Below the pieces are notes generated by a model. That model was not told the origin of the DNA. It worked only from the letters and a program-made list of their open reading frames with translations, and did no database searches. A stretch of DNA of 25,483 nt from a virus, in IMG/VR virus record IMGVR_UViG_3300030012_001254, positions 1-25,483 of that record, one strand, 5' to 3'. Positions 2,471 to 24,218 of this stretch are shown in pieces; positions within the stretch are counted from its first letter, which is position 1, and the number at the start of each line of letters is the position of its first letter. The position numbers were made by a program, and so were the translations under genes.

Positions 2471-2821
2471 TTACTCTACCTCCAATAGTATAAAAAATTC
2501 TAAAGTATCGTTTGAAGAAAATGGCCCTATTCCATCAAAATTTTGTCTAATTACTAAATCACTAGAATTAAATAATCCAATTTCTCTAAGAACTTGACCT
2601 GTCATACCTGCCTGATTTCCACTTACAGTTACCTTGATTTGAACAACATTCGAGTTAGCATCGTTTGTGACTACACTTGTAGCACTTACGCTTGCTAACG
2701 GAACATCTAAATCTGCCTGTGTAGGAAAGGTAGAGTTGCCTCCTAAACCTACTTTGGCACTATTAATTAAACTAGTCGCTATGTTATTCGCAATCAAATT
2801 CTGTAATTTCTCGGTTATCAA
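2471..2821 (-). CDS. Baseplate or fibre-attachment protein (tail-collar-like)
   Basis: This is a 116-residue protein that starts with TTG overlapping the hub gene's stop (TTGA); SD GAGGAAGAG lies just upstream inside the hub's last codons. The N-terminus (LQNLIANNIATSLINSAKVG) and the later segment VLREIGLFNSS, followed by DLVIRQNFDGIGPF and a beta strand ending FFILLEVE, resemble the N-terminal fibre-attachment domain of phage tail-fibre or tail-collar proteins, where LxEIGLFD-type strands are typical. It sits between the hub and the fibre, as expected for an adaptor joining fibre to tail tip. The family assignment is by recognition of pattern only. Confidence 0.55.
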   Translation of the reverse strand: MITEKLQNLIANNIATSLINSAKVGLGGNSTFPTQADLDVPLASVSATSVVTNDANSNVVQIKVTVSGNQAGMTGQVLREIGLFNSSDLVIRQNFDGIGPFSSNDTLEFFILLEVE

Positions 2822-5800
2822 AACTCTTCCTCCACTAATGTAGTGATTGTTGTTACTCCTATGTTCAATGTCTCGGCATTCGTATTTAGTGTTTGTGTGT
2901 TAGTATTCAAGGCGAAAGACCCAAGCGGAACTTCGGTTTTTCTTATTAAGAACTTCAAGGGTTTTATTTTAGCCGACTTTACTATGTCGAATTTCTGTGC
3001 AACATCATCAAAATCATTTTCCCTAATCTTATTATTTACTGCGTTATTTGCTATTGCTAATTCAGCAAATCTATCCTCTAACCCTTTAGTGTAACTTCCT
3101 AATTCTAAATCCATAGTTCCAGTAAGATTATGTTGTATTTCTAAGACAATAAACTCCCTTCTTGTTATGCCTTCTTGCGGTATTTCTACAGTAACTACAT
3201 CACCCACCCTAAGTTGGGAAACCCCTTTGTGTCCGACATTTAATTTAAGGCCAAAACTTTCATCGTTGTGTAATTTTAACAACTGCAATGCTCTTTTGTC
3301 TACATCTTCTTGAGTAGTGAGTTCATTCTCAAACACTTGTAAAGTCTTCTTACCTCTTTTATTTATGCTTCTAAGTTCTTTTCTTACCCCTTTGTGGAAT
3401 TTACCAAATACTTCTATTTCATTGAATAAATCAAATTCGCTCTTTTCTCTACTATAAGAGAATATTTCAGTGTTATTATCTACAGTGTTAAAGAAAATCC
3501 TAGACGATAAATCTTGCTCGGTATCTTCTTTGATAGTAAAAGAACCACCTTGCTCTAATAATGTTTTATCTTTTTTAATTGTTAAAAATTTAATTGCTGA
3601 AAATAAATCAACTCCTCTAAAGTTAGGAGCAACTACGAATGGATAAGATGTAGGGGTTTGTGTAAAATCAATATCATTCTCTTCGAGTAATTCGTTAATT
3701 AAGTCATCTGTGTCCGATGCAATAGAAACGCTAGAACCTATTATTGCTCTTTTTGCATTTATGCTATCATTAGTCCCCACTAAAACATCCATAGTCTCGG
3801 AAACAGAAACTATACCTAATAATTCTTTTTGATTTTCAAGGGTCATTTCAAAACCAATTTCATTATCCGCATCAGTGAAATCTACTGTTGTAAAGTTATT
3901 GTTATCCCCATCACTAAAGTTCATCTGCAACTTACCTTCTGTCATTATATTATTTCTCATATTAACAGGATTCGTAATCACTATGTTATTTTCACTAGTT
4001 TGTCCATCTACATCTACTGCTACATACATGGAAAGAACCCCCTCATTGTTTCCTTCATCATTCCTACTGCCTAATTTATCTCCGTAAATGAAATTATTTA
4101 TTGTAGTATAAGTTAAATTATCTTTAGGTTTTTTCGTATATTGTGATGATAGTTGATTTAATCTAATTTTTTTAGGACTAAAATCATAAAAACAAGTATG
4201 GTTAGGTTGCATTATCCTAAATGTTTTCAATCTACTTGGGTCTAAAGCAGACGATTTTTCTGAAGGGAAATTACCACTTACTGTTAATATATGAGTTCTG
4301 TCTCTTCTTGTCGTGTCTATTTCATGTGATATAACATAGAGAATATGGTTAGGAGTTCCTAAATCAATAGATGCATTGTGTGAAAGCACATTATCTATTG
4401 ACCTGCTTCCTCCCTTATTTGCTGTTTCGTAGTCTTCTACCCCTCCATCTCCATCATCAATCTTAACTTCTTCCGATACCAAATAACATCCTGTTAAGTC
4501 TACATGGCTTAACCAAAGAGGATTATCTGCTCTAATGTGGGTTTCACTAGTATTATTGCTACCTGCGTTGGTGGTTAAAAAATAATCAGTGAATGCTAAT
4601 ACCGTGACATCAGTTCCATTAGTTGCTTTTTTAGTCCCTACTTTATTTCTACTAAATATGGCATCTGCTGTTCCTGATATTGTAGCATTGTTAGACATAG
4701 TAACAGTATCGGGCGTAGGGAATGTGCTGATTTCATGTGTTCTAGTAAAGAAAGGAACATTAGGGCTATCTACATACAAATAAACTTCACTACCCCCTCC
4801 TAATGAAGTAAACTCTTCGTCATCATGAATTTGATTATTTGTGTCTTCTAATCTAGCGGCTGTTGCCGTTACGGTATTGAAAACGCAAGAAGTTTTAAAA
4901 CCTACATCAATTCTTAATGTCGGCTTGAATCCACCAAACACACCATCTGCATCATCATCATATTCTTTATCAGTATCAAAATCAGTAAGAGTTCCCGAAT
5001 CCAACCTTCCTCCATTAAATTTGTCTGTGCTAAGTGTTTTAGTAGCGAAACCTATTTGGTCGCCAAATACATTTCCTTCAGTATCTCTAGTTCTAGTTAC
5101 TGTAGATAATCCATATCTAATTTCTTGCTTAATACTACCATCTATGTTTAGGTTTCTAGCAGAACCAATTTTAGTAGCGGCCATGCCAATATCTACTTTA
5201 GCCCCATTGCCTCCGGTTATTCCCCACCTGTCTAAAAATACAGGAATAAAACCTTGATATTTCCTAACAGTCGCTTTATGAATCATATTTTGAAAATTTG
5301 ACGCATTATGTTTAGTTATTCCAAATGCGCTTTGCGTAGACTGCGGAGTTGATAAAGTATTAGCCAACTCCGACATCATTGGAAATGGTGAAAAGTTAGT
5401 TAGTGACGCTAAACTAGTAGTGCCTGTAAATTTACTAAATTCTGCTAGCCAAGAAAAGTAAGAAAATCTTTCACTTGTTAATACCATAGGCAATATAATA
5501 CTATTATCTTGAGCAAAATTAGTCACTGACCCTCCCATAGCATTTACTCCAACTCTATCGCTAAATGAAGTATCGCAGAAATTTGCACTGTTTCCACCAT
5601 AGCCACTATCATTATTTCCTCTTGCCGCACCAGTTCCCGTTCCTTGACCTTGCGGAGTAAATGCCGAAACATAGTTATTAGGAAAACCACCCCCATCACT
5701 CGCTAATCCTCGCATCGTTACAAATTGCATTGGGTTAATATCACCATCACCTTGAATGAAATCATTTTGAGTATTATATCCTGAAATATTAGCAGTTCCT

Positions 5801-8800
5801 TGTTTATTTCTAAAGGTTAAATTTGTTGGGTTTTGAGAAGAATTCGAGTTAAACAATAATTCAAATTGATTGCTAGCAAAGTCTATGCTTGCTACTCTAT
5901 CAGTAAAAGTCGTTTGAACTCCATTTCCTGTAACTGTCATTCCAACATGAATTTTATCCATATTGCTTGCAGAAAGAACAGTGACGGTCTTACTTCCATT
6001 TACAGTTTGACATGCTATTACTTGTTCGAGTGCTTGATTGGTAGTTGCATGTTTTATCACACAAATATACATAATCGCTCCATTAGGCGCACTACCATCC
6101 TGTCTAGGAACAGTAGGCTGATAGTGAGCAACAGCGTTTGTTGCACCACTTATTATTGTTCTATGTGGTTTATCTATTAATGTTATACTATTACTTGATG
6201 TGCTTGCTACTACTCCAATAAATCTACCTGCCCTGTCTACAATTATATCTTCGGGTTGAACTGTAGTGGTGGGGTTTGCGGCAACGGTTAGCACTTTTCC
6301 ACTAACATTTGTAACATGCATGTTTAGCGAAGTAATGGTATGTTGTGGATATAGATTAATAGAGCCTATGTTTTTAGTGCTTTCCGGTATATTTTCGGGG
6401 TCAAATTGATTATAGAAACAATCGAAAACTAACTCGGTTAATCTCATAATACTAAATCTTCTTAGTTTATTTATCTCTTTATTATCAAAAGCAGAAAGAA
6501 TATTATGTTGTCTATAAGAATCATCTAAAGCAGTAATAGTATTAGTTATTCCTTTAGAACCTTCTTTCAATTCCGAATGATTTGTAATATTTAATTCACC
6601 TACAGTCAATAAAGAGTAGTTCACTATATTTCTATCTTTAGTTCTATTAAGTAGGCTATCCTTTCTCGTAGAAGAATAAGGCAATAAATCACTATTACTA
6701 AACAAAAACATTCTAGCAACTTTAGGGTCTATTTGTTCAAACTTATCTCTATATTGATGAGAGTTTAAGTGCCTAACTTTATTGTTATTTGTTGGCCTTA
6801 AGTTAGGATATGAAGATGGGCCATATGTAGCCAATTTAGTATGGGCATGGGGTGTATAGAATATTTTAGGTTTACCTCCCTGTCTAAATTGTGTTAATTC
6901 AAATGGGTTTGAGTGAAACTGCTCTAATGTTGTTGGTTCAAAAAATCTATCTCCGATGCTAGGTAAAAATCCTCTTGATTCTAATATTCTTTTATTGTCA
7001 AAAGAAAAGAAACTTGCCGTTATTGATGTATTAGAAGCGGTTGCGTTTACTGCCGTCCCTTCTAGTGTAACAAGTTTGGCCTGTAATACAAGGTCGCCCG
7101 AAGCACCATCACCAACTGTAGCACCAATAAATGTATTATCGGGTATTCCTGTGCCTGTTATTTTTTGACCCACTTTAAATACATTATGAAAGAAACTATT
7201 TGTGCTTCCCGAAATGAATGCTTCTACTGTTATATCTATTACAGAATTACCGCTAACGGTTTCTATCCTACCTTCTCCTATGAAGTTTCTTTGACATATA
7301 TCTGTCCCTATTATATTATCTTGACGAATACCATCAACATATTGTCCCGCATTATATCTATATGCACTAGCATAATATTTTATTTTACTAGTTTGGTCTT
7401 CATACATTGTAGAATTATCGAATAAAAGTTGTTTTGATTTGTTAAAATTACCTTTCTCTAAATTAATCAATCTATAATTAGAAGAACCAAATTGGGATTG
7501 ATAACTCCCTAATCTATCAACTCTAGCACTAGTTGAAAGTCCATGCGCCCTAGTTCCGCTTTGATACATCACGGGATGCTCGGCTTCCAATTTAAAATCT
7601 AAGACACTAGTAATGTTATTTACATTTAGTTGATTGACCTGTGGATGTAACAATGCAATGTTTTTTCCTCCATGTAAGTGACCACCATTTAATAAATTCA
7701 GTTCATGCGTGAACTTAGTAGTTTCTCTCACATCGTCTTGATTATGATGTCCTTCTAATCTATCTATTGACATTCCACTTTGGAAAAAAGCGGTGAATAC
7801 AGTTGTTACATTGATAGTAAGTTCCGCATTGTTGTCTAAAGTGATAGACCTTTCTTCTTTGTTTATACTTTCAATTAAGTAAGTAGTTCCAACTGTTAAG
7901 CCTGTGCCTATCACTCGCATGCCGACAAATAACTTTTCAGTATCTACATTTTTTACTACAGGAGAACCTGCAACTACTGATGCTCTTATGAAAGAATGAA
8001 CACCAACTGCTCGGTCTAATATTATTCTACATTGATTACTAGCCAATGAAAATTCAGTAGGGCTTGCACTAACACCATTAGCATTAATGCTCATTTCAAC
8101 GCTATCGCTACTTACGAAAGTTATAGTAGCGGATGAGGGAATGTTAGAATGAGTAGTGTTATCTATTACCATTCCTGCTGATAATTTACTTGTATCTACG
8201 GTTAATGTAGCGTCACCATTAGCGACAGTTGTTGCATTTACTGTAACATTAATATCCTTTTCAACTTGTAATATGTTTGCCAAAAACTTACCATTAACAA
8301 ACAAAGGCTTACCATGTAAATTCTTTTCTCCTCTAATATTATTAAAAGAAGATAGGGCAGTGTCGCTATCTACTTCTATAAATCTTCTAGCAAGAGTCAT
8401 ATTATGTGTTAATTTACCAACCAAAGTAAAATCAGTATCTTGCGTGTTAGCATAATTAATATCAACTCTACCTAAAGTTAATGGGTTATATGGAGCGATA
8501 GTTACAATAGTTCCCTTATTTTCACCTGCGGATTTGGTATTGACTATTTCAAAATCAATAAGAGTATTTACAGTATCAAAGGTTTCACTATTTCCATTTT
8601 CATCCTCTAATATAGTTTGGAAGTGGGAATCACTTTTCATATTAGCAACATCACTTAGGAAATATCCTGTAGCATTTTCGTTATCACTTCCACTACTACC
8701 AATTAAAATATCTCCTTCTTCACCTGTTGAAGTTATTTTAACTCCTGAATCAAAGATTAATCCTTTGCTAGATGCACCACTTAAACTTGTAGTAGAATCT

Positions 8801-11295
8801 ACAAAGTTGTTGGTCGCTAATGCTTTATTTAACATATAACTCTTATTAGATTCTTTAAATCCTGCAAGTGTAGTTCCCTGCGCTCTTGCTTTATCTACTA
8901 GTGTAAAACTAGTATCTGTCTTTCCTAATGATATTTCTCCTATATATCCCATCATGCCCGAAGCATGTTTAAGATAAACCTTGTCGCCTGTTGCTAAAGT
9001 TATACTGCCCGAAGCAGTTAATGTTTTACTATCAAATTCACAAGTAAAGTTTACTCCAACACTTACAAGTTTATTATACGGGCTTTGAGTTGAATAGATT
9101 ATATCTTGAGAAAACAAAGTATTCTTATTTATGATGGGAGATATTAGTTGCCTTATCTTACTTCTACCCGCTAACTTAACCTGCGTCAATCCATTTTCTT
9201 TGTAGTTATCTATTCTTTCAACAGTCCCATCTATCTTTTCTACTAAAATAGCATACTGACCATCCATGTAGTCTAACATAGTTCCTTGAGCATGATACTC
9301 ATGTTCATTACTAGTGTTACCATCCGAGTCATAATATGCTTTATTTGAAAAATCTAAAGTGATTAATTTTTTTTCTGCATCGGTAGAAGTCACACTAGCA
9401 TACAAAAAGGAAAACTCTTTTGATAATAATTTAACATACAAATCTGCTTCTCTATTATCTATTAATGGAAAATCAGTTAGAAGGGTTTTATCTCTTTTAT
9501 TATACGCTCTTCTTTCTAATGAACTGCCATTTGCTAAAGTTGGAACACTCCCTACTGTAAAGGATGATTCAGTTTCTAATCTATGATAGGTGTCAAATGT
9601 AATAGTTTGTGCAGTATTACTAAAACTCCCTAAAGCATCAACAACTAATATTCTACTACCTACTCTAACTTCATCCCCGATATTTAGATAACTACCTAAG
9701 TCGTGGTCTGTTCTTATGTTGTAAACTGTCCCTCCCGCATTTGAAACAATGCTAGCGTTAAATGTTTTAAATTCATTAAAGTCTCCCGTAAATAACTGTT
9801 GTCTAATTCTAAGAGGTTCATTGTCTCCCATCTTTGTAGTTATTATTCTAAATGGGTCTGCTATTTTCACTTCGGCCAAACTTCCTTTTGCTCCCATAGA
9901 CTCATACAAAAGTTGGTCTATGACATTGTAACTCAAGTTGGCCTTATCTTTGGAAAGATTATACGACAAGTATCTAATAGGGCCAGTATAATTTTGAGTT
10001 GCTAAATTTGTTACTTCATCATCGTCATCCCTTCTAGCATGACAGAAGCAACTATCTCTATCAAATGGTGTATAATCAGGTAAAGGAATACCACCTTCAT
10101 TGCCATTAACTGTATTCATAACGACGGGACTATCTAATTCCCTCAACCTATCTACTAACCTAGTCCTTAAGGAGAACCTACTATAATCAATAACCTCAAA
10201 ACCAAAGTCCTGCATAGTAGTAAAGAAACTAGTTGTTGTTAGAGTATCTGTTCCTGCCGAAAAGAAATCTAGTTCCGAATATAAAATATTATACTTTTTG
10301 TTGTGGTCAAGTTGATTTTTCTTATCTGTGTTTTCATCAAAGAAATAAAACAATGGTCTTGATAGACCCGCATTATGACCTATGCTATTTTTTATTCCAA
10401 GACCAACAGCCACTATAGTTTTATCAGTAGGAATAGGAGTAGAATACAATTTGAATTTAATTCCTTTGCTTACTTCATTCCCTAATTTCGGTTCAAATTC
10501 AAAAGAGTCTCCGACTACATCATCATTCAGTTTCTCTTTGACTCTAGCAAAATGATGCTTAGAACTATCATTAGAATGAATCATAGCGAATAGATGATGT
10601 GTGTCTAAATTTACGCTGTTAATATTTATTCCTGTCTGTGTTAAATCATCAAAACATTTTATGACATTACCGTTTGTGTTCTGCAAATTTTGATGTTCTA
10701 GCCCTAAAGTATATGTCGTATTAGTAGCAGTAGCACTCGCTTTTTCTGTTAAATGAAATGTATTGCTTGATGGTATGCTTTTGATTGTAGCAGTTATGCC
10801 CGTAAAACCTACTCCTGTTACGCTTTGACCAACATACAATGAGTTAGTATTTCCACTAGATAAAGTAACCTTTTCACTGCCTAATGTAACATTGCAGTTA
10901 GCAATTTGTGACCTACCTATGGGAGTTAATACAATACTTCCCGAACCCTCTTCAATTATTACAGCACCAAAATTATCTACAACCGAGCCACTACTAATCG
11001 GAGATAATGTGCTTGCACACAATAAAGGATTTGGGGGAACTTCATACGCTGATTTAGTAAAGGTTCTATCGGCAGTTGTAGAATTAGTAGCCGACTTGCT
11101 TAAGACAGCAGTTGTTGAACTTAGGCCAGTTATTATTGTTCCATCCGGTATTCCACTCCCTGTAACAACCATTCCAATAAATAGCCCACTAGTATTTGGC
11201 GATACAGTTAGATTAGCGTTACTATTAGTTGTGCTTGCTCTATCGAAGGTCAATGTGTCTTTAGATGGAGTAAAGGCCACTACTGTTGATGTCAT
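2818..11295 (-). CDS. Giant tail hub / tail tip protein
   Basis: This is a 2825-residue protein, one third of the window. The ATG start overlaps the upstream stop as ATGA and follows SD GAGGAGGT. The C-terminal 350 residues resemble tail hub proteins (gp27/gpD-like): about 2536-2615 a beta-rich segment, about 2626 IEVFGKFHKG, then ELTTQEDVDKRALQLL, and about 2694 LRVGDVVTVEIPQ followed by an EIQHNLTG strand. The N-terminal and central parts carry at least six diverged modules of about 65 residues with a VGMxVTGxGI core (near 21-80, 130-195, 1011-1085, 1100-1165, 1342-1428 and 1758-1828). Other parts (for example residues 1880-2200) I do not recognise. It probably plugs the tail end and contacts the host. 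Siphovirus tip proteins are usually 600-1500 residues, so this one is very long. Confidence 0.75.
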   Translation of the reverse strand: MTSTVVAFTPSKDTLTFDRASTTNSNANLTVSPNTSGLFIGMVVTGSGIPDGTIITGLSSTTAVLSKSATNSTTADRTFTKSAYEVPPNPLLCASTLSPISSGSVVDNFGAVIIEEGSGSIVLTPIGRSQIANCNVTLGSEKVTLSSGNTNSLYVGQSVTGVGFTGITATIKSIPSSNTFHLTEKASATATNTTYTLGLEHQNLQNTNGNVIKCFDDLTQTGININSVNLDTHHLFAMIHSNDSSKHHFARVKEKLNDDVVGDSFEFEPKLGNEVSKGIKFKLYSTPIPTDKTIVAVGLGIKNSIGHNAGLSRPLFYFFDENTDKKNQLDHNKKYNILYSELDFFSAGTDTLTTTSFFTTMQDFGFEVIDYSRFSLRTRLVDRLRELDSPVVMNTVNGNEGGIPLPDYTPFDRDSCFCHARRDDDDEVTNLATQNYTGPIRYLSYNLSKDKANLSYNVIDQLLYESMGAKGSLAEVKIADPFRIITTKMGDNEPLRIRQQLFTGDFNEFKTFNASIVSNAGGTVYNIRTDHDLGSYLNIGDEVRVGSRILVVDALGSFSNTAQTITFDTYHRLETESSFTVGSVPTLANGSSLERRAYNKRDKTLLTDFPLIDNREADLYVKLLSKEFSFLYASVTSTDAEKKLITLDFSNKAYYDSDGNTSNEHEYHAQGTMLDYMDGQYAILVEKIDGTVERIDNYKENGLTQVKLAGRSKIRQLISPIINKNTLFSQDIIYSTQSPYNKLVSVGVNFTCEFDSKTLTASGSITLATGDKVYLKHASGMMGYIGEISLGKTDTSFTLVDKARAQGTTLAGFKESNKSYMLNKALATNNFVDSTTSLSGASSKGLIFDSGVKITSTGEEGDILIGSSGSDNENATGYFLSDVANMKSDSHFQTILEDENGNSETFDTVNTLIDFEIVNTKSAGENKGTIVTIAPYNPLTLGRVDINYANTQDTDFTLVGKLTHNMTLARRFIEVDSDTALSSFNNIRGEKNLHGKPLFVNGKFLANILQVEKDINVTVNATTVANGDATLTVDTSKLSAGMVIDNTTHSNIPSSATITFVSSDSVEMSINANGVSASPTEFSLASNQCRIILDRAVGVHSFIRASVVAGSPVVKNVDTEKLFVGMRVIGTGLTVGTTYLIESINKEERSITLDNNAELTINVTTVFTAFFQSGMSIDRLEGHHNQDDVRETTKFTHELNLLNGGHLHGGKNIALLHPQVNQLNVNNITSVLDFKLEAEHPVMYQSGTRAHGLSTSARVDRLGSYQSQFGSSNYRLINLEKGNFNKSKQLLFDNSTMYEDQTSKIKYYASAYRYNAGQYVDGIRQDNIIGTDICQRNFIGEGRIETVSGNSVIDITVEAFISGSTNSFFHNVFKVGQKITGTGIPDNTFIGATVGDGASGDLVLQAKLVTLEGTAVNATASNTSITASFFSFDNKRILESRGFLPSIGDRFFEPTTLEQFHSNPFELTQFRQGGKPKIFYTPHAHTKLATYGPSSYPNLRPTNNNKVRHLNSHQYRDKFEQIDPKVARMFLFSNSDLLPYSSTRKDSLLNRTKDRNIVNYSLLTVGELNITNHSELKEGSKGITNTITALDDSYRQHNILSAFDNKEINKLRRFSIMRLTELVFDCFYNQFDPENIPESTKNIGSINLYPQHTITSLNMHVTNVSGKVLTVAANPTTTVQPEDIIVDRAGRFIGVVASTSSNSITLIDKPHRTIISGATNAVAHYQPTVPRQDGSAPNGAIMYICVIKHATTNQALEQVIACQTVNGSKTVTVLSASNMDKIHVGMTVTGNGVQTTFTDRVASIDFASNQFELLFNSNSSQNPTNLTFRNKQGTANISGYNTQNDFIQGDGDINPMQFVTMRGLASDGGGFPNNYVSAFTPQGQGTGTGAARGNNDSGYGGNSANFCDTSFSDRVGVNAMGGSVTNFAQDNSIILPMVLTSERFSYFSWLAEFSKFTGTTSLASLTNFSPFPMMSELANTLSTPQSTQSAFGITKHNASNFQNMIHKATVRKYQGFIPVFLDRWGITGGNGAKVDIGMAATKIGSARNLNIDGSIKQEIRYGLSTVTRTRDTEGNVFGDQIGFATKTLSTDKFNGGRLDSGTLTDFDTDKEYDDDADGVFGGFKPTLRIDVGFKTSCVFNTVTATAARLEDTNNQIHDDEEFTSLGGGSEVYLYVDSPNVPFFTRTHEISTFPTPDTVTMSNNATISGTADAIFSRNKVGTKKATNGTDVTVLAFTDYFLTTNAGSNNTSETHIRADNPLWLSHVDLTGCYLVSEEVKIDDGDGGVEDYETANKGGSRSIDNVLSHNASIDLGTPNHILYVISHEIDTTRRDRTHILTVSGNFPSEKSSALDPSRLKTFRIMQPNHTCFYDFSPKKIRLNQLSSQYTKKPKDNLTYTTINNFIYGDKLGSRNDEGNNEGVLSMYVAVDVDGQTSENNIVITNPVNMRNNIMTEGKLQMNFSDGDNNNFTTVDFTDADNEIGFEMTLENQKELLGIVSVSETMDVLVGTNDSINAKRAIIGSSVSIASDTDDLINELLEENDIDFTQTPTSYPFVVAPNFRGVDLFSAIKFLTIKKDKTLLEQGGSFTIKEDTEQDLSSRIFFNTVDNNTEIFSYSREKSEFDLFNEIEVFGKFHKGVRKELRSINKRGKKTLQVFENELTTQEDVDKRALQLLKLHNDESFGLKLNVGHKGVSQLRVGDVVTVEIPQEGITRREFIVLEIQHNLTGTMDLELGSYTKGLEDRFAELAIANNAVNNKIRENDFDDVAQKFDIVKSAKIKPLKFLIRKTEVPLGSFALNTNTQTLNTNAETLNIGVTTITTLVEEEF

Positions 11296-13142: not shown

Positions 13143-15143
13143 TCACCTCACGAATCCACTAGAAGAAAAACTTCTATTGATTTTATTTGTTATCATATTT
13201 CCAACTTGGTCTGCTATTCTCCTTAATTCAGCATCGGAAGTATCTTTAGCATTTATAGTAATGTTGATGTTTGTATCTCCCATTTTTACTGATTCAGCGT
13301 TACTGTGAACTCTACTTCCCGCAGGTAACTTAACTAATTCCGGCCCTTTTTCTCCAACCAGTTGTAAGCCGGAAGCAGAAACTATACCTCCATCTGCAAA
13401 AGCACCTTTTATGTTCCCTGTCATCAAAGTCTTTAGATTCCCCGTTTCATCTACGACCTTCTTTTGTTCGTCACTTAATCTATTATAGCCCGATATTGAC
13501 TTAGCCGCACCAACAGCCTTATCTTTTACTCCACCTAAGAATTTTGCTAATCCTTTGAATATCTTTACTTTGAAAACAAAGTCCTTAGCAAAATCTCTCA
13601 ATGTGCTAAGAATATCTGAAAAGAACTGACCACTCATAATGTAATCTAATAATTTAGCAACAAACTCTACAGGCTCTTTAATTATCTTAAGTAGCATATC
13701 ATTTATCTCTTTTTTATATCTACTATACAACGCTACTAAGAAAGCAGACACTAAGACAAATACTGCTATTGGTATAGAATAAGTAGCAATTAGTTGTAAT
13801 GCCATAGCGATTAGAGTTCTAGCCATCCAAACTCCTGCTACTAGCATACCTGCTTTGACTGCATATCCTATCACCGCTTCTCTAAAACTAGCATCATTGA
13901 CAAAGGCATCAAAGAAATCTATTATTAAACCGAAACCTTCCGTTAATGTAGTCCATGCTAATGCAAGTAGTAATTCTCCTCCTTCTAATAATAGGTCTTT
14001 AATCTTAGTCAGCATAGGTGGTATTAGTTCAAATGCTTTTTCATAATCTCCACTAATGAAAGCGTAGGCTATATTGAATAAATCCATTGCTACGCTAAAT
14101 ACTCCTATAAGGAACTCTTTTATTTCGGCTATCATCCCCATCTCTTCTAATACTTTGAATATTTCATATGCGGCTTTTACGAATAATAAGAACGCTATTG
14201 CACCAAATATAACAAATAATATCATCTTTTGTAAATTAGGCAATATTGACTTTTGCATCATACTGTTAAAATTCAATATTTTTTGTTGGAACTTCTTTCT
14301 ATTCTTCGCTAATTTAAACATACCAACTAAAGGAGCAACAGGTAAAGCAAGAGCCTTGAATTGTTTAGGGTCAAAGAAACTCTTTCTTAAATTTTCAAAG
14401 CCTTCTTTTTTACTGTCTTTGGCTAGTCCTTCTTGTTCTTCGGACATCTTTTGTTTTTCATCCCCGATAGCAAACTTTACCTCACGCTTAGTTTGTTTTT
14501 CATCCATGCCTAGCAGTTCTGCTCTTTTTCTAGCCTGTTTTTCTGCTAATACTAATCTGTCTTCATCAAAAGCATGAGCCTGTTTTGCCATTTTTATGAC
14601 TTCTTCTTCCTCTTTTCGCATTTGTTTGTGTTTTTCTGTAACACTATTGTAGGCTTTAGCCATAGCATAGGCTTCGTCACCTGTTGCTTTAAGTGCTATT
14701 TGAAATGCCGCAGTATCTTTTATTTGTTCTTTCAAAAGTTCGCTTTCTGCTTCAGTTTCTATACCTCTTTGGTAGTTTTCATATGCTACCATTGTGTCTT
14801 TCATTGCGGCATTCAAAGTTTCATATTGTTTTATATTTTGAACAATAGCATCATTCTGTTTATTTCTCTCATCGGTATTTTTCCTAGACGCTTCTGCAAA
14901 CTCGGACAAAACACCTAATGCTCCTCTTAAATAGTTTTGAACTTTCCACAAAGGAGTTCCTGAAACCAATCTGCTAAAAATAGTCCACTTTTTACCTGCA
15001 CCGTCTAAAGAATTAGCGGCATTGGTTATTTCTTTAAACAGACCCTTAAACTCAATACCGGAACTAAAGGAAACTCTTTCTAAACTTGCTAATGAATCCC
15101 CAAGACTTTCGATTTCTCTTTCTGTCTTTTCGAGGTCACTCAT
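13143..15143 (-). CDS. Tape measure protein
   Basis: This is a 666-residue protein that sets tail length during assembly. ATG at 15143 is preferred over GTG at 15152 because SD GGTGA lies six bases before it. Residues 1-270 are mostly charged helix, suited to coiled coil. From about 304 to 470 come several hydrophobic segments (for example FVIFGAIAFLLFVKAAYEIF). The C-terminus has the hallmark tape-measure ending: ADGGIVSASG, then VGEKGPELVKLPAGSRVH at about 594-612, then a NITINAKDTSDAELRRIADQV helix. Using the usual 0.15 nm per residue, the tail would be about 100 nm long. It is preceded by the chaperone pair, exactly as in lambda-like tails. Confidence 0.9.
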   Translation of the reverse strand: MSDLEKTEREIESLGDSLASLERVSFSSGIEFKGLFKEITNAANSLDGAGKKWTIFSRLVSGTPLWKVQNYLRGALGVLSEFAEASRKNTDERNKQNDAIVQNIKQYETLNAAMKDTMVAYENYQRGIETEAESELLKEQIKDTAAFQIALKATGDEAYAMAKAYNSVTEKHKQMRKEEEEVIKMAKQAHAFDEDRLVLAEKQARKRAELLGMDEKQTKREVKFAIGDEKQKMSEEQEGLAKDSKKEGFENLRKSFFDPKQFKALALPVAPLVGMFKLAKNRKKFQQKILNFNSMMQKSILPNLQKMILFVIFGAIAFLLFVKAAYEIFKVLEEMGMIAEIKEFLIGVFSVAMDLFNIAYAFISGDYEKAFELIPPMLTKIKDLLLEGGELLLALAWTTLTEGFGLIIDFFDAFVNDASFREAVIGYAVKAGMLVAGVWMARTLIAMALQLIATYSIPIAVFVLVSAFLVALYSRYKKEINDMLLKIIKEPVEFVAKLLDYIMSGQFFSDILSTLRDFAKDFVFKVKIFKGLAKFLGGVKDKAVGAAKSISGYNRLSDEQKKVVDETGNLKTLMTGNIKGAFADGGIVSASGLQLVGEKGPELVKLPAGSRVHSNAESVKMGDTNINITINAKDTSDAELRRIADQVGNMITNKINRSFSSSGFVR

Positions 15144-15148
15144 TAACT

Positions 15149-15355
15149 TCACCGTCTATTTTTTGCTTTTTCTAACTCTTCGCTCTTTATCGTTTCAATT
15201 ACACCGTGAACAGTTAATAAATCTTTTACCAAACTAACCGGCATTTTATACACCTCTAACGGACTTATGCCTAATGCGGAGGATAATGTATATACCATTA
15301 TTAGACTAATAGTTTTAATATCGGAAGGCTTACCTTTCAATGCCTTCCTAATCAT
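15149..15355 (-). CDS. Tail assembly chaperone, second frame (T-like domain)
   Basis: This is a 68-residue frame lying -1 relative to the gene before it. Its ATG overlaps that gene's stop (ATGA), so it could be translated alone by coupling. The frameshift signal just upstream suggests that its main product is the C-terminal part of a fusion protein. The sequence is helical (IKTISLIMVYTLSSALGISPLEVYKMP), like the C-terminal extensions of tail assembly chaperones, which bind the tape measure. It lies directly before the tape measure gene. Confidence 0.8.
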   Translation of the reverse strand: MIRKALKGKPSDIKTISLIMVYTLSSALGISPLEVYKMPVSLVKDLLTVHGVIETIKSEELEKAKNRR

Positions 15356-15717
15356 TCCTTTTTTTCTTCATCCTCCTGCATGAGCATCATAGGGTTTGGT
15401 AAAATTTCTTTAATTTGATTGCCAACATAAGGGCTTAGTTTTAGCATATCAATAGTTGAGAGGGATGGTTCGGTCTTAGAAATAAAATTATCCATCATGT
15501 AACGATACATGGCGTTTAAATCAATATCTAAGTTTTGCGTCTTAGTGTCAATTTTCATAACAGAATTCAACGCTTTTTCAGTTTCTAACCATGTGGGTTC
15601 TTTTACCCACACTTTTAGATATTCTTCTTGGTCGGGTGCTACTTTGATATAATGTAGCGTAGGCTCTTGTAGTGCAAATAAAGCACTCTTATCACTTATT
15701 ACTTTCTTTTCAGTCAT
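15149..15717 (-). CDS. Frameshift fusion of the tail assembly chaperone (GT-like)
   Basis: This is the predicted -1 frameshift product. Residues 1-120 come from the first frame and end EEKK at the heptamer. A glycine (GGA) follows, then the 68 residues of the second frame beginning MIRK, giving 189 residues in total. In lambda the G:GT ratio matters for tail assembly, with GT linking the chaperone to the tape measure and tube protein. The fusion is inferred from the signal and frame arrangement, not observed as protein. Confidence 0.78.
15323..15377 (-). promoter_or_regulatory. Programmed -1 ribosomal frameshift signal
   Basis: Three elements lie in order on the minus strand. An internal SD, AGGAGG, is at 15377-15372. 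Seven bases later comes the slippery heptamer A AAA AAG at 15364-15358, in the correct phase (GAA AAA AAG). Nine bases after that a perfect 7-bp hairpin, GGAAGGC/GCCTTCC with a 12-base loop, spans 15348-15323. The zero-frame stop TGA follows two codons after the heptamer. This is the architecture of the E. coli dnaX frameshift signal, used here at the place where lambda makes G and GT. Confidence 0.85.
15352..15717 (-). CDS. Tail assembly chaperone, first frame (G-like)
   Basis: This is a 121-residue protein. The start is taken as ATG at 15717, six bases after SD AAGGTGG; an in-frame TTG at 15741 lies upstream but has no SD. The sequence is acidic and helical, with EPTWLETEKALNSVMKID, NAMYRYMMDNFI and LSTIDMLKLSPYVGNQIKEI, the pattern of siphovirus tail assembly chaperones that coat the tape measure before tube polymerisation. 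It lies between the tube gene and the tape measure gene. The last codons contain the slippery heptamer, so a minority of ribosomes should continue into the next frame. Confidence 0.8.
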   Translation of the reverse strand: MTEKKVISDKSALFALQEPTLHYIKVAPDQEEYLKVWVKEPTWLETEKALNSVMKIDTKTQNLDIDLNAMYRYMMDNFISKTEPSLSTIDMLKLSPYVGNQIKEILPNPMMLMQEDEEKKE

Positions 15718-15901: not shown

Positions 15902-17527
15902 TCACCCCTGCAATACCCAGTGGGTTTTAACTGTGCAAAGCGTTAAGTTTCTTGGCATTACTGTTGCTTCTACAACAATTGGCCCTTTATCTTCTGCAAT
16001 AGGGAAGTTATTTGCACTAATGAAATAATCTTCAAACTTTAGTGTAATTGTTTCTCCATTAGACTTAGTAAAGATTAACTCTATGGTTTGCGAAGTATCT
16101 TCACTATCATTCAATAATGCTGTGTAAAGAGCATCGTCTGTTACATGACCAGTAAAAGATATTTCATATGTTCTTTGTGCAGGTATAGATTCTTGAACAT
16201 CTTTTGAACCAACACCTAAGAATCTTCTATCTTGTAAATTATTATTCATAGTTAAAGTTAATGAGTTAATTTTCAAGAAAGTGCTTCCTAGTAGTTTGAA
16301 AGTTCCATCGGAGAAAAAGAAAGGCTCTCTTGTTTCGTCTGCATTAGTGCTAGATTCGTAATTGATAAATGCTGTTTCATCAGTAACTCCTCTTCTAGCA
16401 TCATACAATTCATCTTGAGCAAGGTCATGAACATTTCTTGTTGTCAAATCTAATGTCATCTTAACTTCTTCGTTTTCGTTGGCGGTCATAGTCAAAGTAT
16501 TGACTCTACAACCTCTAGCGATTTTAACAAAGTTCAAATCTTCTGCTTCTGCTGAATTGTTTGTTCTGTAAATATTAGTTCCTGTTAGTTTAGATAGATT
16601 TTGCTCTAGTGAAAAGGACGGTAGTAAATCTCCATCCTGTTCATCGAATGTATATGTAATTGCTTTTGTTAATGTGGTAGAACCTGTTGGCCTATCTAAT
16701 TTATGGTAAAAATCTAATTGAGCATCAGTAGCCTCGAAAGGAGTGATAGGAGGACATATTTTATTACCAACTGCTCTTCTAAATATTGGCCCTGTTTCTA
16801 CAATACCGGCAATAGTCTTATCATCACCTGCGGGAATTTCGCTTGTTCCGGCATCCATAGAACGAATTAGGAAACTATTGTTATCTCCCGAATCGGGTAA
16901 TGTTTGTCTATGTGCATCAGTAGATAAAGCAGTAGCCAAAGCATCTGTGCTACAAGTCAAGGTTGTGCATTTTCCAAAGAAGTAATACAAGAATGCACCA
17001 TGATTTGCCACAAGACCCAAGTTACCACCACTAAAAGAAGTAATGCCTTTGTATTGATAAGTAAAGTTTCTTGAGCCACCGAGAGAAAGATTTTGTTGTT
17101 TCATTTCAACTTCGGTTGTTGGGAAAGTAGCACTTTCAAGAATACCTAACCATTGGTCGGAAAGTAATCTCTTTGCTGTTGAAACAGGAGCAGGAACAGG
17201 TGCGCCATATGACTTAATTACAAAATAATCAGTAGAAGCGGCTGAAGCAGAAGGAGTTATTGTTACAGTATTTACAGTATTCGCTGTTATTCTATGAGTG
17301 GATTGTAAGGCATCACTTGTATTGTATCTTTCTAAAAGACATCCTTTATACAAGTTAGTAACTAATTCAAAGTCAGTATCAAAGGTTGCATTTACTTGTA
17401 TAACACTTTGGGCTGAACCGTCTAATGCTCCTCCACCACTTTTTAATCCTACACCTAAAAATAAATCATTTTCCGGTATAAATGTTATACTTGCCCCGCT
17501 TCCTAAAAATATATCTGTATTTGCCAT
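15902..17527 (-). CDS. Major tail tube protein
   Basis: This is a 541-residue protein. The ATG start follows SD AAGGAGAGG. Segments typical of tail tube proteins include VEMKQQNLSLGGSRNFTYQY and, in the last 120 residues, strands with FLKINSLTLTMNNNL, RTYEISFTGHVTDDALY and ETITLKFEDYFISANNFP. Position supports this: it follows the tail-completion candidate and precedes the chaperones and tape measure. At 541 residues it is about twice the usual tube length. Residues about 30-110 (LYKGCLLERYN, then HRITANTVNTVTITPSA) look like an extra beta module similar in style to those in the hub, which might decorate the tube surface. Two cysteines are close together in GKCTTLTCSTD. Confidence 0.75.
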   Translation of the reverse strand: MANTDIFLGSGASITFIPENDLFLGVGLKSGGGALDGSAQSVIQVNATFDTDFELVTNLYKGCLLERYNTSDALQSTHRITANTVNTVTITPSASAASTDYFVIKSYGAPVPAPVSTAKRLLSDQWLGILESATFPTTEVEMKQQNLSLGGSRNFTYQYKGITSFSGGNLGLVANHGAFLYYFFGKCTTLTCSTDALATALSTDAHRQTLPDSGDNNSFLIRSMDAGTSEIPAGDDKTIAGIVETGPIFRRAVGNKICPPITPFEATDAQLDFYHKLDRPTGSTTLTKAITYTFDEQDGDLLPSFSLEQNLSKLTGTNIYRTNNSAEAEDLNFVKIARGCRVNTLTMTANENEEVKMTLDLTTRNVHDLAQDELYDARRGVTDETAFINYESSTNADETREPFFFSDGTFKLLGSTFLKINSLTLTMNNNLQDRRFLGVGSKDVQESIPAQRTYEISFTGHVTDDALYTALLNDSEDTSQTIELIFTKSNGETITLKFEDYFISANNFPIAEDKGPIVVEATVMPRNLTLCTVKTHWVLQG

Positions 17528-23699: not shown

Positions 23700-24218
23700 T
23701 CAATAATCTTTTATCATACTAGTAATTCCTTTATACACCATTTCGGGGTCGGACTTTGCTGATACTATATACTTGAAACAAGGTATGCCCTTGTCATTCA
23801 ACTGCCTCATCCCGTATGTAAATGGTTCAAATATTTCATGTTTATCTATAGGCTTATCACTTTTATATTTCTCTCCCCACATATCATATTTGTTAGCCCA
23901 TATACCGACAGCCATAGGATAGTCTGCTTCTTTTTTCTTTCTACCCGAAGGCCACCTGTCTGCCTCTCCTCCTAAGTCAGCACTTTTAATTGTATGAGAG
24001 TCACCATCAATCTTTACATTTTTTCTAGTGGCTCTATGTAAACCAACAGTTCTATCGTTTATTGTGGGAACTTCACCCCTTGTTCTAAGTTGATGGCTCA
24101 AAGTTGTTTTACCAACCATTGTAGAGCCATAGACTCCGAAGTTAATTGCATGAACTCTTTTGTAAAATCCTATTATGGCTTCACCGACCAATATGGCAAA
24201 GCCAGTCATTATGGACAT
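23700..24218 (-). CDS. Ras/Arf-like small GTPase
   Basis: This is a 172-residue P-loop GTPase with all five G motifs: G1 GSTMVGKT at 31-38, a G2 candidate threonine near 57-63 (TVGLHRAT), G3 DLGG at 81-84, G4 NKYD at 109-112 after the hydrophobic strand MAVGIWA, and G5 SAK at 153-155. The length matches Ras/Arf proteins. The residue after G3, where Ras has catalytic Gln61, is Glu85, so hydrolysis may be slow or need a partner. Residues 5-19 (TGFAILVGEAIIGFY) are hydrophobic and could insert in a membrane. The ATG overlaps the stop of the small membrane protein before it. GTPases are unusual in virion operons; the role here is unknown. Confidence 0.82.
   Translation of the reverse strand: MSIMTGFAILVGEAIIGFYKRVHAINFGVYGSTMVGKTTLSHQLRTRGEVPTINDRTVGLHRATRKNVKIDGDSHTIKSADLGGEADRWPSGRKKKEADYPMAVGIWANKYDMWGEKYKSDKPIDKHEIFEPFTYGMRQLNDKGIPCFKYIVSAKSDPEMVYKGITSMIKDY

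Follow-up and report, generated by a model that had tools for sequence, protein, structure and literature searches.

The sequence analysed here, termed the window, covers positions 1 to 25,483 of virus record IMGVR_UViG_3300030012_001254. Two overlapping open reading frames, G and T, lie on its minus strand between the genes for the tail tube and tape measure proteins, in the order tube-G-T-tape measure (Table 1). The junction reads GAA AAA AAG GAA TGA in the phase of G. A TGA at 15370-15368 closes the -1 frame, which is open from 15367 through 15149, so that a shift from G into T is possible only inside a 16-base overlap that consists essentially of just the A-run. Joining the frames predicts a G-T fusion of 120 + 69 = 189 amino acids (...EEKK-G-MIRK...), the length that a first-pass annotation made from the DNA letters alone had given. 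The Shine-Dalgarno (SD) sequence, the in-phase heptamer and the 7-bp hairpin which that annotation had described at the frame junction were each found at their positions, on the minus strand.

Table 1. Features of the G/T junction and its flanking genes in the window.
Feature	Position	Strand	Remarks
Tail tube protein	15902..17527	-	upstream of G; Pfam Phage_tube_2, E 2.8e-17
G, tail assembly chaperone, 0 frame	15352..15717	-	121 aa + TGA
Internal Shine-Dalgarno AGGAGG	15372..15377	-	7 nt 5' of heptamer
Slippery heptamer A AAA AAG	15358..15364	-	in phase with G
TGA stop of G	15352..15354	-	overlaps the T-frame ATG (15355-15353)
T frame, -1 relative to G	15149..15367	-	68 aa; in the fusion read from codon GGA (15358-15356)
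Downstream 7-bp hairpin	15323..15348	-	arms 15348-15342 / 15329-15323; local form of the 3' stimulator
Tape measure protein	13143..15152	-	directly 3' of T; PHROG tail length tape measure protein, E 2e-8

The proposed identity of G and T as tail assembly chaperones is supported by gene order, PHROG matches and predicted fold. Among relatives, 36 of 43 G and 20 of 39 T sequences matched PHROG tail assembly chaperone families. An AlphaFold model of G from the window (mean pLDDT 85) resembled YqbN (Z 6.8) and the tail assembly chaperone gp13 of HK97 (Z 4.3), two of the three solved structures listed; Z scores of this size are middling and supportive only. Foldseek alone yielded no significant match for G, with YqbN ranked first, Pfam gave no significant match for G or T, and tblastn of G against a phage collection found nothing.

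Searches of viral contigs with G and the tail tube protein provided 139 distinct G/T junctions. All of them carry an in-phase slippery heptamer in the short overlap (AAAAAAC, 105; AAAAAAG, 22; AAAAAAA, 7; GGGAAAC, 3; GGGAAAA, 2). The replacements by G GGA AAC or G GGA AAA preserve tandem slippage but lose the A-run. The base preceding the AAA codon always fits the heptamer, though the codon to which it belongs differs (GAA, CAA, GGA, ACA, GTA or GCA). AAT as the final heptamer codon occurs in none of the 139 junctions, because AAT followed by GA would create a TGA in the -1 frame. Loss of the heptamer in relatives that keep both frames, which the first-pass annotation had proposed to look for, was thus never seen, and the conserved G/GT strategy that it had recognized holds with respect to both the two frames between tail tube and tape measure and the heptamer. 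As judged from the window's own genes, the chance of an in-phase X XXY YYZ heptamer in an overlap of this size is about 1.5%, and that of A AAA AAG/C about 0.15%. Given its conservation across relatives, the whole signal is far beyond chance.

The internal SD was subject to constraint at the expense of usual codon choice. At the SD codons five and four positions before the AAA codon of the heptamer, CAG outnumbers CAA by 67 to 0 and GAG outnumbers GAA by 82 to 1, whereas elsewhere in G usage is the opposite (CAA:CAG 323:56; GAA:GAG 991:230). The nominal significance of this contrast is inflated by the kinship of the sequences, but the contrast remains extreme. Dual coding does not account for the bias because in most loci the overlap with T does not reach as far as these codons. 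Codon choice thus bears out the expected conservation of the SD in relatives, and selection on the SD is strong at this level. The window and most of the relatives with an SD share a distance of 7 nt to the heptamer, 70 junctions having AGGAGG at the usual spacing. An SD is also located close upstream of nearly all of the 18 gene starts inspected in the window; the host of the virus therefore evidently uses SD pairing.

Downstream of the heptamer, the window can form a perfect 7-bp stem with a 12-nt loop that begins 9 nt after the heptamer. Taken alone, this hairpin is moderately unusual (z -1.8 against dinucleotide shuffles, reached by 11 of 200; z -2.6, p 0.02 against synonymous recoding), and its energy is modest (-12 kcal/mol including the neighbourhood). 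Synonymous recoding of the 60 bases 3' of the heptamer, with the T protein kept, was applied to 86 representatives. In nearly all of them the native RNA was more stable than its recodings, and on average far more so (mean z -3.2; p<0.05 in 87% of the representatives), as opposed to z values of -1.1 to +0.3 at control offsets. In 69 aligned junctions, a family stem was recognized in which about +6/+9 to +19 pairs with +45 to +58, and its covariation score was 0.391 compared to 0.264 +/- 0.010 for shuffled and 0.16-0.20 for slid controls; since the stem was derived from the same sequences that were used to score it, the comparison with slid controls is biased towards it. The recoding test is independent of the family-stem model. 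RNAalifold predicted no consensus structure for the 69 aligned sequences, probably because several clades pair the same 5' arm with other partners, and a named-structure count recovered the stem that RNAalifold had missed. In both forms the stem-loop starts 5-9 nt past the heptamer (9 nt in the window, about +6 to +9 in the family).

The window itself keeps only six of the nine core pairs of the family stem. Formation of the family stem in the window was rejected, as the forced fold reaches -6.2 kcal/mol compared to -16.9 kcal/mol for the window's own hairpin. Here, as in the closest relatives of the window, the 5' arm region of the family stem pairs with a nearer partner to give the 7-bp hairpin, and most relatives have the longer stem at this position. 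Three junctions (L057, L064 and L079) possess a further local solution. What the relatives conserve, with covariation, is a downstream stem; its 7-bp version is specific to the clade of the window, and a few relatives show little structure.

Taken together, the locus is very probably a programmed -1 ribosomal frameshift site from which a siphovirus-like virus would make two tail assembly chaperones. The majority of ribosomes would end G at its TGA. A minority would pause on A AAA AAG, between a duplex of AGGAGG and the anti-SD behind and an RNA stem ahead. Both tRNAs could then move back by one base and pair anew with AAA AAA, after which translation would enter T to yield the 189-residue G-T fusion. 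By analogy with phage lambda, G may coat the tape measure protein while the T domain of G-T may recruit the tail tube protein. This reading rests on features of the sequences, namely (i) a conserved anatomy; (ii) selection on SD and heptamer at the codon level; (iii) an RNA stem under selection; and (iv) homology to tail chaperones. That ribosomes slip here, how efficiently they do so and what both products do is what we infer.

With frameshifting taken as real, it is conceivable, albeit rather unlikely, that the 7-bp hairpin of the window is no stimulator and that SD and heptamer are enough. Little structure was seen in relatives L028, L089 and L226, and the stem of the window is identical among its few close relatives, which is why it displays no covariation. 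A role of the hairpin is favoured, by contrast, by its start at the position where the family stem starts, by the codons of its 3' arm, which are invariant while those of the loop vary, and by the p value of 0.02 obtained on recoding of the window.

Synthesis of T as a separate protein, by termination and reinitiation at the T-frame ATG with the A-run being incidental, is very improbable. The ATG overlaps the stop of G as ATGA in the window and in some relatives, and some separate T might be made there. Yet many relatives that retain both frames carry ATA, TTA, CTA or GTA in place of this ATG, whereas the heptamer stays. Only 56 of the 139 junctions have an ATG within approximately the first seven codons past the slip, and many have none for at least 15 codons. 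As the T-frame ATG is not conserved, reinitiation cannot be the general mechanism in the group. Moreover, the only SD available to T is 16 nt away, as opposed to the close SDs at other genes of the window, and reinitiation offers no reason for the conservation of SD, heptamer and stem.

Still less credible is transcriptional slippage, in which RNA polymerase would lengthen or shorten the A-run by one A, so that G-T could be read by normal translation. The window does contain seven consecutive A, and such slippage would yield -2/+1 products too. Against it stand the five loci with GGGAAAC or GGGAAAA and other loci with only six A; moreover, an SD and a downstream stem, here one with covariation, stimulate ribosomal and not transcriptional events. 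An assembly error or a decayed gene split by an indel, for which the proneness of homopolymer runs to error might speak, can practically be dismissed since 139 distinct sequences, obtained from many metagenomes, share this frame break while both flanking frames are intact.

In 11 distinct junctions (L084, L086, L092, L098, L107, L122, L123, L125, L128, L129 and L190), T is in the -2 (= +1) frame relative to G. All 11 carry GAA AAA AAG (A7G), on which both tRNAs could move back by two bases and pair again with AAA AAA, and in ten of them a -1 slip would meet a stop one codon later. The final codon AAG is present in 11 of 11 of these junctions as compared to 11 of the 128 others (nominal p 1e-10, which is overstated because the sequences are related). 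Stem and SD are retained. After a -2 slip the junction residues would be KK-R-M-I-K, which match the KN-R-M-I-R of the -1 relatives and therefore favour -2 over +1. A +1 slip was considered for the 11 loci and rejected, as these loci showed no good site for +1 re-pairing and the junction would lose one residue. L128 is without an ATG, which argues against reinitiation at this locus. In a tree built from G plus T, the frame label needs four changes, at least two of which are forced by well-supported branches. The same slippery site has probably switched from -1 to -2 frameshifting in part of the virus group, as far as can be read from these junctions. If true, the changes between -1 and -2 would allow the evolution of frameshift direction to be studied at one site. 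In phage Mu a -2 frameshift is known, at the level of decoding (PMC5009743). The likeness to the tail chaperone of Mu concerns the 11 relatives, the window itself being -1; unlike in Mu, the -2 slip would take place on A7G, in lineages that otherwise use -1. The available text of the literature found attributes only -1 and +1 frameshifting to archaeal viruses.

The present locus shares with the G/GT system of lambda-like phages the gene order, overlapping frames before the tape measure gene, a heptamer near the end of G and a fusion product. The -1 frameshift in the G/GT tail assembly chaperones of these phages was reportedly described by Xu, Hendrix and Duda in 2004. Lambda-like G/GT uses G GGA AAG, as opposed to A AAA AAG/C in the group studied here, in which, unlike in lambda-like phages, an internal SD and a long stem are conserved. 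PMC5009743, PMC8211752 and PMC7911831 describe G/GT frameshifting for HVTV-1 and HCTV-1, 2 and 5 (-1), HSTV-2 (+1) and Hardycor1. G/GT frameshifting is thus already known in related haloarchaeal viruses, and the signal reported here belongs to a known kind. HVTV-1 and HCTV-5 have GGAGG and, 10 nt further on, G GGA AAG close to where G ends, together with an annotated joined tail assembly chaperone; compared to the present group, their heptamer is further from the stop of G, the spacing is 10 nt and protein identity is low. Profile comparison gave weak links of G (E 2e-4) and T (E 3e-5) to the proteins of HVTV-1 and HCTV-5. The genome map of Aoguangviridae already bears the label of a tail assembly chaperone. 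No report of a frameshift signal in magroviruses was found in an incomplete search of the literature, and priority is not established.

Designation of the signal as dnaX-like is appropriate with regard to its type, given that E. coli dnaX combines the same A AAA AAG with an upstream SD and a downstream stem-loop, in a different gene and for a different purpose. It is less so in two details: the SD, although present and selected, stands at 7 nt whereas stimulatory SDs of bacterial -1 sites are spaced by 9-14 nt (PMC5009743), and most relatives use A AAA AAC. According to the available text of PMC8211752, the one archaeal -1 case tested experimentally is fucA1 of Saccharolobus solfataricus. As described there, fucA1 resembles the present group in having an A-rich heptamer (A AAA AAT) and a stem-loop, but differs in being a cellular enzyme gene with rare codons and in that no SD is reported in that text.

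Among named viruses, the closest relatives of the tail tube protein are from the haloarchaeal viruses HVTV-1 and HCTV-1, 2 and 5 (Druskaviridae). The longer relatives comprise 43-97 kb, with one of 185 kb. A family B polymerase in two parts was found in 18 of 20 and GroEL (Cpn60) in 15 of 20 of these; both markers belong to the relatives and not to the 25-kb window itself. Magroviruses of Poseidoniales have genomes of 90-110 kb, a two-part family B polymerase and GroEL (PMC10768690), and the order Magrovirales with its Poseidoniales host has been described (PMC12999244). No match to PCNA (sliding clamp; PF00705) or primase (PF01896) was obtained in 15 relatives, and matches to MCM-like proteins (in seven relatives) and to TFIIB were weak. 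A scan of genome contigs with the tail tube alignment detected no relative on any host contig, and a scan with the viral GroEL returned only a Roizmanbacteria sequence at 36%; neither scan is informative as to the host. By their gene content the relatives look like magroviruses of Poseidoniales, and the host of the virus is probably a Poseidoniales archaeon, an uncultured member of an abundant marine group. The suggestion of an archaeal host thus gains indirect support from the haloarchaeal tail tube relatives and the magrovirus-like markers, while PCNA and primase, two archaeal replication markers, were not found in the relatives. The longest relative, L078 (IMGVR_UViG_3300021958_000021; 184,733 bp), has the polymerase set and GroEL twice each, as would result from the joining of two magrovirus genomes in assembly.

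Very few cases of programmed frameshifting are on record in archaea: it has been demonstrated for one cellular gene, and a handful of further cases are predictions in haloarchaeal viruses. The 139 junctions make up a large natural data set on signals to which archaeal ribosomes likely respond: a preferred A AAA AAC, an SD at 7 nt and a stem from about 5-9 nt on.

Two further genes on the minus strand of the window deserve mention. Positions 23700-24218 encode a 172-aa protein whose motifs (GSTMVGKT, DLGGE and NKYD) follow the pattern of a small Ras/Arf-like GTPase, which is unusual for a tailed virus; neither a Pfam match nor a relevant PDB match was obtained for this protein. Downstream of the tail genes, positions 2818-11295 encode a protein of 2825 aa without clear family match, which is possibly a tail tip or fibre protein.
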